Positions 7,132 to 9,733 of a DNA stretch of 44,076 nucleotides are shown in pieces. Under the pieces are notes generated by a model. That model was not told the origin of the DNA. It searched no databases and worked only from the letters and a program-made list of their open reading frames with translations. The stretch's first letter is position 1; each line of letters begins with the position of its first letter. A program made the translations under genes and the position numbers. Where the stretch lies: contig QCPB01000009.1 in the NCBI GenBank assembly GCA_003209795.1, positions 1 to 44,076 of the forward strand, written 5' to 3'. This DNA comes from Prochlorococcus sp. AG-436-C05 (lineage in GTDB: Bacteria > Cyanobacteriota > Cyanobacteriia > PCC-6307 > Cyanobiaceae).

Positions 7132-8289
7132 TTAAGAACGAACCTGAACTGGCATAACTAGATAAGTAAAAGAATTGATATTATCTTCTGGAACAAAAAC
7201 CGCTGGAGTAGTTGAAAGATTACACTTTAATACTACATTTTCACATGAAATAACTTTTAATCCCTCAAGTAAATATCTAACATTAAATGCAATATCGAAT
7301 TTTTCTCCAGAATAAGAAACAGGTATAGATTCATTCGCACTTCCTATATCTTGTGCATCAGCACTTATAAGGGCAAGATTATTTTTATCCAACTTAATCT
7401 TTACAACACTACTCTGCTGATCAGCTAAAACAGCGATTCTTTCTAACGCATCAGTTAATTTTTTTGTATTAAAAATAAATAATTTTTCAAAATTATCTGG
7501 TATTAATTGAGAGTAATTAGGATAATCTCCTTCAAGAGTTCTAGTTGTAATTATTTGATTAGAAGAAATAAATACTACTTGACCTTTATCATAAAATAGT
7601 TTAATTGATTTTTCAGTACTTCTTAAAGTTAAAAGTTTTTCAATTTCCCTCAATGATCGGGTTGGAATAGTTACAGAAAAGTTTTCGTCATCAGATGATG
7701 AATTTTCTGTAACTTCAATATGTTCTTCATTACCAATAAGTACTACAGCTAATCTATGACCATCTGTTGAAGCAGATTCTAAATATTTTTGCTTGAATGT
7801 GAAATTAACCCCTGTAAGTAATTGCTTTGAATCATCATTACTACTAGCAAAGACTGTCAATTTTAAAGCTTGTAAAAAAGAAGATGGATCAATATTTAAA
7901 GATGTACCACTCTCAACAAATGGTAAATTTGGATAATCATCCGATGGAATACCTTTAAGATTAAATGTACCAGTATCACTTTTTATTAAAATATTATCTG
8001 AATTCTCATCAACCTCCAAATTAACTGGGGTTTCACTTGGTAATTTATTTACTATTTCAGATAAAAGTTTTGAAGGTATTGTAATAGCTCCACTATTTTT
8101 AACTGTTGCATCAAAAGAAGTTTGTATTCCTAAATTCAAATCAAATCCTGTCAAGCTAACTTTATTAGTACCTTGATCAGCTGTTAGAAGTATATTTGCA
8201 AGAATAGGATGAGTTGGTCTTGAAGCAACTGCTTTACTTACTAGTTGAATAGCATTATTTAATTCATTTTGGTTGCAAACAATCTCCAT
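7132..8289 (-). CDS. dnaN: DNA polymerase III sliding clamp (beta subunit)
   Basis: It is the ring-shaped processivity clamp that tethers the replicative polymerase to DNA; 385 aa, the usual length. Recognisable features are the N-terminal MEIVCNQNELNNAIQLVSKAV, the ILANILL segment, a central SSDDENFSVTIPTRSLREIEKLL, and the C-terminal VMPVQVR end typical of beta clamps. Three repeats of the clamp fold span the length. The ATG (8287-8289) runs into a 12-bp palindrome (8288-8299), and no clear Shine-Dalgarno is seen. It is the first gene leftward of the probable origin and is transcribed away from it. No dnaA lies beside it, as is usual in cyanobacteria. Confidence 0.98.
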   Translation of the reverse strand: MEIVCNQNELNNAIQLVSKAVASRPTHPILANILLTADQGTNKVSLTGFDLNLGIQTSFDATVKNSGAITIPSKLLSEIVNKLPSETPVNLEVDENSDNILIKSDTGTFNLKGIPSDDYPNLPFVESGTSLNIDPSSFLQALKLTVFASSNDDSKQLLTGVNFTFKQKYLESASTDGHRLAVVLIGNEEHIEVTENSSSDDENFSVTIPTRSLREIEKLLTLRSTEKSIKLFYDKGQVVFISSNQIITTRTLEGDYPNYSQLIPDNFEKLFIFNTKKLTDALERIAVLADQQSSVVKIKLDKNNLALISADAQDIGSANESIPVSYSGEKFDIAFNVRYLLEGLKVISCENVVLKCNLSTTPAVFVPEDNINSFTYLVMPVQVRS

Positions 8290-8299: not shown

Positions 8300-8400
8300 T
8301 ATTATTTTGATATACACAATATACTTTTTTAATAAATTAAATTCAATATGCTGTTTTTTTATTTCTTTTCTATTAATAAAAAGAATAAAAGAAAAAAATA

Positions 8401-8412
8401 TAGTAGTAGTAG
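8401..8412. promoter_or_regulatory. DnaA-trio-like element (TAG)4
   Basis: TAGTAGTAGTAG lies four bases from a tandem pair of DnaA boxes. Read 3' to 5' away from the boxes, the plus strand is GAT-GAT-GAT-GAT, which matches the 3'-(G/A)AT-5' repeats of the DnaA-trio described in B. subtilis. An AT-rich stretch follows on the dnaN side. The reading as an unwinding element is inference. Confidence 0.6.
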
Positions 8413-8416
8413 TTTT

Positions 8417-8434
8417 TGTGGAATTTGTGGAATT
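8417..8434 (-). promoter_or_regulatory. Tandem pair of DnaA boxes
   Basis: Two abutting copies of TGTGGAATT (8417-8425 and 8426-8434) read AATTCCACA on the minus strand. Each matches 7 of 9 bases of TTTTCCACA, with the CCACA core intact. They are head to tail with no gap and sit next to the TAG tract. Confidence 0.6.
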
Positions 8435-8479: not shown

Positions 8480-8488
8480 TGTGGAAAT
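8480..8488 (-). promoter_or_regulatory. DnaA box
   Basis: TGTGGAAAT reads ATTTCCACA on the minus strand, matching 8 of 9 bases of TTTTCCACA. It has the same orientation as the tandem pair. Confidence 0.6.
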
Positions 8489-8500
8489 ATTTTTATTGTA

Positions 8501-8509
8501 TGTGGATTT
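8501..8509 (-). promoter_or_regulatory. Weak DnaA box
   Basis: TGTGGATTT reads AAATCCACA on the minus strand, matching 7 of 9 bases of the E. coli consensus TTATCCACA. Orientation is the same as the others on this side. Confidence 0.5.
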
Positions 8510-8598: not shown

Positions 8599-8607
8599 TT
8601 TTCCACA
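8599..8607 (+). promoter_or_regulatory. DnaA box, perfect TTTTCCACA
   Basis: TTTTCCACA is an exact match to the DnaA box form common in cyanobacteria. It is in the opposite orientation to the other boxes and about 20 bases from the thrC stop, marking the right edge of the box cluster. Confidence 0.7.
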
Positions 8608-8629: not shown

Positions 8630-9733
8630 TTAATATCCTAATATTTTGCTTATATCTTTTAACGAAGGCTCAATATTTTTTCTAAAAATTGCATCATTAT
8701 TTTTAATTGCACAATCAGGGTCTTTTAAACCATTTCCAGTTAAAACACAAACAATAGTTGATTCTTTTTTTATTCTATTTTTATTTTTTATTAATCCAGC
8801 AACTGATGCTGCGCTGGCAGGTTCACAAAACACACCTTCCTTAGCAAGTATTTTATAAGCATTTATTATTTCTTCGTCTGTTACAGACTGAAAGTCTCCT
8901 TTACTTTCTTTTTTAACTTCTTTTGCTTTTTCTCTATTAACGGGATTACCAATTCTAATAGCTGTTGCTATTGTCTCTGGGTTTTTTACAATTATATTAT
9001 TTACTAATGGTGCAGACCCTTCAGATTGGAAACCCATCATTATTGGTAATTTTAAATTTCTTTTTATTTTTAAATATTCTTTAAAACCTAACCAATATGC
9101 AGTTATATTACCTGCATTTCCCATTGGTATACAAAGCCAATCAGGTGCATGACCTAAGTCATCTACTATTTCGAATGCTGCAGTTTTTTGACCTTGTATT
9201 CGGTATGGATTAACAGAATTTACAAGTTCTATTGGATATTCTGAAGATAACTCTCTTACTATTTCTAAAGCTTTATCAAAATTACCTTTTATAGATATTA
9301 TTTCGGCACCATACATCAAAGCTTGAGCAAGTTTACCTTGAGCAACAAAACCTTCAGGGATTAAAACATATGATTTTAATCCACCTCTAGAAGCATAAGC
9401 AGCAGCTGAAGCAGAAGTATTTCCAGTACTAGCGCAAATCACTGCTTGTTGCCCTTCTTCTTTTGCTTTACTTATTGCCATTGTCATTCCTCGATCTTTG
9501 AAAGATCCAGTAGGATTAAGGCCATCATATTTTAAATAAACTTTTGTTCCGTTTCCAATTAATTTACTAATTAAATCACTCTCTATTAAGGGAGTATTGC
9601 CTTCATTGAGTGAGACAATAGGAGTATTCAATGTAACTGGCAGATAATTTTTATAAGCATTAATTAATCCAGGCCATCTTTCTTTTCTGTAGTTAAGATG
9701 AAGTTTCTTTTTAATTCTATTTAATAACGACAT
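8630..9733 (-). CDS. thrC: Threonine synthase
   Basis: It converts O-phosphohomoserine to threonine with PLP; 367 aa. The PLP lysine is Lys79 in GSFKDRGM, preceded by NEGNTPLI and [10 protein letters not shown]. The PLP-phosphate loop ASTGNTSAS and the late VLTGNGLKD motif are typical of the thrC/cystathionine-synthase fold type II family. It is the last gene of the ABC1 kinase - DUF1400 - thrC run, starting six bases after the DUF1400 stop. Transcription points into the origin region, so it runs head-on to a rightward replication fork. Confidence 0.96.

Follow-up and report, generated by a model that had tools for sequence, protein, structure and literature searches.

A probable DnaA-trio unwinding module beside dnaN in Prochlorococcus, and its natural variants among related cyanobacteria

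A module of four DnaA-trios, a 4-base spacer and two tandem DnaA boxes, at 8401-8434 of the window (the whole stretch of DNA analysed, 44,076 nucleotides of contig QCPB01000009.1 from Prochlorococcus sp. AG-436-C05), is very probably the Basal Unwinding System (BUS) of the Prochlorococcus origin, oriC. The basis of this reading is the sequence and geometry of the module, its conservation, a GC-skew minimum sampled in the relative G050, and the main trio-contacting residues in the DnaA protein of the relative G104. Prochlorococcus is an abundant marine photosynthetic genus; its likely unwinding site can now be put in the BUS family, and the exact bases to mutate are given here.

Several elements of this picture were already in place. 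The layout and spacing are not new, since the gap between box and trios, 'previously named GC-rich', is reported to be 4 bp on average (PMC8287927). The same source predicts a BUS in 1755 of 2070 bacterial origins (85%), and describes in vitro reconstitution of the S. elongatus BUS, with strand separation by that organism's own DnaA. A cyanobacterial oriC beside dnaN with TTTTCCACA boxes was likewise known (PMC4674748), and another study places oriC near dnaN and reports that DnaA dependence has been lost in some lineages (PMC7198777). Our literature search, conducted outside subscription main texts and supplements, found no paper that pairs Prochlorococcus with 'DnaA-trio'.

Results

On the plus strand, positions 8401-8412 read TAGTAGTAGTAG, 8413-8416 read TTTT, and 8417-8425 and 8426-8434 each read TGTGGAATT. 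The minus strand, followed toward dnaN, therefore runs AATTCCACA AATTCCACA AAAA CTACTACTACTA and continues into an A/T run. Sequence and conservation identify the two minus-strand AATTCCACA elements as DnaA boxes, the trio-proximal one at 8417-8425 and a second, abutting it, at 8426-8434. Taken 3' to 5' from position 8412, the plus strand is (3'-GAT-5') repeated four times, a tract retained in 128 sequences of the genus and in 99 from elsewhere in the family, and this is the strand on which capture by DnaA would be expected. Beyond the tract, the DNA at 8347-8400 is AT-rich as far as a putative dnaN promoter, and would mark the direction of strand opening.

The arrangement follows the published BUS rules. 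These allow a box, optionally tandem, to have up to two mismatches, and each of our abutting boxes departs from TTTTCCACA/TTATCCACA at two positions. At least three contiguous 3'-NAN-5' trios are called for within 16 bp of a box; here four 3'-GAT-5' trios lie 4 bp from the trio-proximal box and are separated from the second by 13 bp. The order of boxes, spacer, trios and AT-rich DNA holds on the minus strand, and relatives have the same order. A sequence-only reading of this DNA had placed a trio tract at 8401-8412, four bases from abutting boxes at 8417-8434, and proved exact in coordinates, spacing and polarity; its proposal of a B. subtilis-type basal unwinding layout with four perfect trios is supported by sequence, geometry and conservation alike.

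A chance origin of either the tandem boxes or the tract-plus-box pattern is unlikely. The window contains a single copy of the tract TAGTAGTAGTAG and none of its reverse complement. The tandem-box pattern TGTGGAANTTGTGGAA has a single match in the window, without mismatches; with up to two mismatches allowed, shuffled sequences contained 0.11 matches on average, and at least one match in 9 of 100 shuffles. The tract-plus-box pattern TAGTAGTAGNNNNTGTGG, searched with up to two mismatches, gave two overlapping matches, one of them exact, against a shuffle mean of 0.16, and two matches were reached in 1 of 100 shuffles.

The module is situated in the intergenic region between dnaN (7132-8289, minus strand; DNA polymerase III beta clamp, TIGR00663 above cut-off) and thrC (8630-9733, minus strand; threonine synthase, TIGR00260 above cut-off), which forms the other border of oriC. 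The nearest named matches of DnaN are Prochlorococcus AG-402-K10 (96% identity) and AG-409-A22 (95%). Further DnaA boxes accompany the tandem pair. About 50 b upstream of it, and in the same orientation, is ATTTCCACA (8480-8488, minus strand), and 51 boxes at about this distance were counted in 117 genus regions (up to one mismatch). A weaker box with two mismatches, AAATCCACA, follows at 8501-8509 on the minus strand. A distal, inverted box without mismatches, TTTTCCACA, lies beside thrC on the plus strand (8599-8607), about 170 b from the pair; 108 boxes at about this distance and in this orientation were counted in the same 117 regions. In B. subtilis, a further distal DnaA box is a requirement (PMC6669920). 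The sequence separating the trios from dnaN contains a putative sigma-70 type dnaN promoter, TTGAAT-17-TATATT (8318-8346, minus strand).

The draft genome that contains the window consists of 40 contigs and is 71.65% complete, and GC skew was therefore taken from G050, a relative assembled as one contig. Across 21 sampled 20-kb pieces, cumulative skew was lowest at the dnaN end, peaked at 0.44 at 0.89 Mb, stood at 0.42 at 1.07 Mb and had fallen to 0.03 at the other end, the single pieces being noisy and some of opposite sign. A minimum at the dnaN end makes this locus the expected origin, and the module thus lies in the dnaN-thrC region of the chromosome where, in G050, the skew minimum also falls. 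The sequence-only reading had staked itself on the module not sitting away from the GC-skew minimum, and on these 21 samples, noisy as the pieces are, it does not.

Within the genus, the exact pattern CCACANNNNCTACTACTA was found in 117 of 200 genomes, once per genome, while the same pattern read backwards as a control gave 6 matches altogether in the 200. Each of the 117 exact matches is on the dnaN strand, 104-120 b upstream of that gene. The exact pattern is absent in the other 83 genomes, several of which, when fetched, had substitutions in box or trios; a dnaN match is missing in 49 of the 200. Among 128 distinct genus sequences, CTA, the top-strand form of the trio, is present at trio 1 in 128, at trio 2 in 125, at trio 3 in 117 and at trio 4 in 118. 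One sequence of the 128, L096 (genome G182), has five consecutive CTA units after a 4-base spacer, and another, L187, admits two readings, a 4-base spacer with four trios or a 1-base spacer with five.

For the wider family, 259 upstream regions were assembled, and removal of 3 that were too short and 28 duplicates left 228 (128 genus and 100 other family sequences), whose lineages are not independent. A 4-base spacing was found in 227 of these 228 distinct regions, 220 by blind scoring and 7 by hand. The blind procedure scored boxes and tract jointly with the spacer free from 0 to 10; its matrices had been trained on 181 rows that already had a 4-base spacer, while the search itself kept the spacer free. 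It returned four bases for 123 of the 128 genus sequences and for 97 of the 100 from the rest of the family; the 97 include two with weak scores (L275 and L292), and the mislocated L109, L255 and L294 were left uncounted. Seven sequences were read by hand as having the same spacing (L009, L018, L072, L187, L109, L218 and L255), four of them truncated by a contig end. The single sequence of the 228 without the module is L294. An earlier locator, which placed box and tract separately, gave four bases for 120 of the 128 genus sequences and for 64 of the 100 others; we put the remainder down to degenerate boxes or to ties within the repeat, and replaced this locator. The TAG tract, whose free variation in close relatives would have counted against the initial proposal, is thus held in place, with CTA at trio 1 in every genus sequence and one spacing almost throughout the family.

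These data bear directly on the suggestion that the TAG repeat is a chance microsatellite, low-complexity DNA prone to slippage within an AT-rich intergenic stretch. AT-rich DNA does give rise to simple repeats, and five CTA units are present in 1 of 128 genus sequences, or also in L187 if its spacer is one base. Against this, 103 of the 128 have four consecutive units and 104 keep the full (CTA)4 string, phase and spacing persist in the family and in other families, and most deviating sequences show substitutions under a positional rule and not changes of length. We regard a microsatellite as scarcely credible.

The spacer was the one point on which the initial description needed revision. 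It had been described as A-rich and not GC-rich, and AAAA is indeed what the minus strand reads at 8413-8416. The commonest spacers are AGAA and AAAA in the genus and GCCC and GGCC among the other family members, and spacer GC goes up with dnaN third-position GC. The A-rich spacer is therefore not a distinctive feature: it keeps a constant length, its letters follow base composition, and the departure loses its importance beside a published rule that concerns an average length of 4 bp.

In the rest of the family (n=99), CTA is retained at trio 1 in 91 sequences, at trio 2 in 76, at trio 3 in 63 and at trio 4 in 31. Constraint thus declines away from the boxes, as predicted for a filament nucleated at them. 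The substitutions themselves are far from even. At the middle base (T on the top strand, A on the bound strand), 76 cells carry a top-strand G, against 4 with C and 6 with A, and the genera with a changed middle base number 19, 4 and 2 respectively. Simple parsimony, applied to a single FastTree tree of 78 dnaN sequences, infers 18 T>G changes and 2 T>C changes at the middle base. At fourfold dnaN sites the same tree yields 224 T>G and 276 T>C changes, or 139 and 200 under the other root preference. The difference between the middle base and the 128 fourfold sites has a Fisher p of ~5e-5 (~2e-5 with the other root preference). When both directions are counted, A<->C exchanges on the bound strand make up 34 of the 41 changes at the middle base; the corresponding figure for fourfold sites is 366 of 1320. 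Most of the 40 dnaN genes added for the tree were taken from genomes whose middle base is not T, a choice that should not bias G against C. A smaller fourfold control on two fully invariant sites (p = 0.035) was discarded as too small and widened to the 128.

The other two positions of the trio behave differently from each other. The first base, G on the bound strand, changes least (7 inferred events), and the third accounts for 35 inferred events, mostly top-strand A>G; in the B. subtilis structure the third base faces away from the pocket (PMC10721633). In all, 41 of 99 family tracts contain no three contiguous middle A's within the first four trios, a figure that applies to an in-frame reading, whereas the published BUS search program also allows other frames.

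A DnaA protein with the main trio-contacting residues is found in a relative. The window's own draft genome (71.65% complete) yielded no DnaA match, and because the relatives G103 and G104 have the protein we presume that its gene falls in a gap. Across the genus, DnaA was matched in 158 of 200 genomes, and in 64 of the 66 high-quality ones. In an alignment with B. subtilis DnaA (structure 8btg), where residue correspondence was assigned by eye, G104 DnaA is identical at E183, N187, I190, I193, R202, K222, E223, E228 and R264. According to the structural work, residues 183, 187, 202 and 228 contact the two captured bases, 190 and 193 flank the third base, 196 contacts it, and 222 and 223 contact the backbone (PMC10721633); R264 is the arginine finger. 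The trio-capturing residues for the first two bases, together with the arginine finger, are thus found in G104, while B. subtilis Asn196 differs, being Asp.

An ancestral BUS might nevertheless persist as a remnant in a lineage that replicates independently of it, as some polyploid cyanobacteria do. DnaA dependence has been lost several times in cyanobacteria (PMC7198777), and 7 of 21 loci fetched from across the class have no module beside dnaN. The strong constraint on trio 1 and on spacing within the genus, the DnaA matches in nearly all of its high-quality genomes, and the roughly V-shaped cumulative skew of G050 all argue against a remnant, and we consider it very improbable here; a V-shaped skew is reported for most species of clades that include S. 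elongatus (PMC7198777).

One family member is an exception. In G223 (L378 and L294), which supplies the single sequence of the 228 lacking the module, the thrC-dnaN synteny is kept, yet neither trios nor tandem boxes are found there, and no DnaA match was obtained at 95% completeness, making it a candidate for DnaA-independent replication among picocyanobacteria. Joint loss of DnaA and BUS was weighed as proof and set aside. Seven other family genomes without a DnaA match keep the module, six of them under 80% complete and one, G378, 97% complete, and the association is therefore suggestive at most (Fisher p = 0.08, resting on one genome).

Modules of this type adjoin dnaN in many other cyanobacterial families. 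In 13 of 21 loci fetched from across the class Cyanobacteriia, tandem boxes resembling TTTTCCACA lie upstream of dnaN, followed by four bases and a CTA tract. An exact match to tandem box, four bases and CTAYTA was found in 54 of 97 class genomes, and in 50 of the 54 it shares the strand of dnaN and precedes that gene by 119-633 b. This pattern was composed after module sequences had been seen in the fetched loci, so that adjacency to dnaN is the independent part of the result; its reversed control also has matches, at up to two mismatches. A class-wide search by single box was abandoned, as background swamped the signal. Within 900 b upstream of dnaN, seven fetched loci (L334, L336, L337, L338, L339, L340 and L345) contain no good module, and these may represent lineages with a moved or DnaA-independent origin. 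They belong to families labelled f15, f28 and f32.

The class-wide comparison also helps to weigh the idea that tandem boxes and CTA repeat control dnaN, as a DnaA operator or an untranslated-leader element, with strand opening elsewhere. The module does stand just upstream of the likely dnaN promoter, at a constant 104-120 b from dnaN in the 117 exact-match genus genomes. That distance widens to 119-633 b over the class, and 4 of the 54 genomes with an exact match have the module away from dnaN, the one in G409 lying ~1 kb downstream of a DnaA domain match. An operator, moreover, would need neither a fixed 4-base phase nor a 3-base code with a rule for the middle base. A control element is, in our assessment, very improbable.

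Discussion

The Prochlorococcus module joins the known BUS family, and the natural trios with cytosine in the middle, seen in GC-rich relatives, are the interesting part of the finding. The DUE of E. coli oriC shares with it DnaA boxes and adjoining AT-rich DNA; there, AT-rich 13-mers and an IHF site lie beside DnaA box R1 and opening involves an IHF loop-back, and a 3-base code is not known to be required. The BUS score of E. coli is relatively weak (PMC8287927).

A close experimental counterpart is the incC BUS of B. subtilis (DnaA-boxes #6/#7 and trios), which is alike in its tandem boxes, short spacer, 3'-GAT-5' trios on one strand and distal box (PMC6669920). It differs in having six trios engaged in the cryo-EM model, against four here (PMC10721633), and the Prochlorococcus module is set apart by its A-rich spacer, its thrC-dnaN location and its AATTCCACA boxes. 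The S. elongatus BUS is alike in being a cyanobacterial oriC near dnaN with boxes and trios (PMC7198777). The Prochlorococcus boxes and spacer appear A/T-drifted by comparison; the genomes G421 and G402 read TTTTCCACA TTTTCCACA GCCC CTA(C/T)TACTACTG.

The A-to-C bias of the middle base in GC-rich relatives matches a rule derived by mutation in B. subtilis. There, strands with a middle C were separated at a rate similar to those with A, while G and T gave lower rates, and mutants with middle C outgrew and out-initiated those with G or T, from which the authors concluded that DnaA reads the amino group (PMC10721633). On balance we lean towards viewing picocyanobacteria as a natural mutagenesis of the DnaA-trio code. 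As dnaN third-position GC goes from ~15% to 80%, 3'-GAT-5' would give way to 3'-G(A/C)(T/C)-5', so that the code in use would be 3'-GM-5' with a constant spacing, real trios could lack a middle adenine, the NAN rule may undercount them, and loss of DnaA would be followed by loss of the module. The authors of the BUS survey suspected that deviant trios without a middle adenine exist (PMC8287927), and cytosine tolerance might, according to the structural study, widen the trio code (PMC10721633). The GC-rich relatives are apparent natural examples of such suspected C-middle trios.

Published work on B. subtilis and S. elongatus suggests how the Prochlorococcus BUS might operate. DnaA domain IV would dock on the tandem boxes, from 8434 to 8417, and the 4-base spacer would set the register, bringing the first AAA+ domain to trio 1. 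Adjacent DnaA subunits would then each capture the 3'-GA-5' pair of a trio on the plus strand, from 8412 toward 8401. The growing oligomer would extend the opening into the AT-rich DNA on the dnaN side, the direction of unwinding expected from the polarity of the module, and the helicase would be loaded there. The distal inverted box at 8599-8607 probably delivers or stabilises DnaA. In such an arrangement the position of the putative promoter at 8318-8346 means that strand opening and dnaN transcription could interfere with one another; a block resembling this promoter is visible by eye in relatives.
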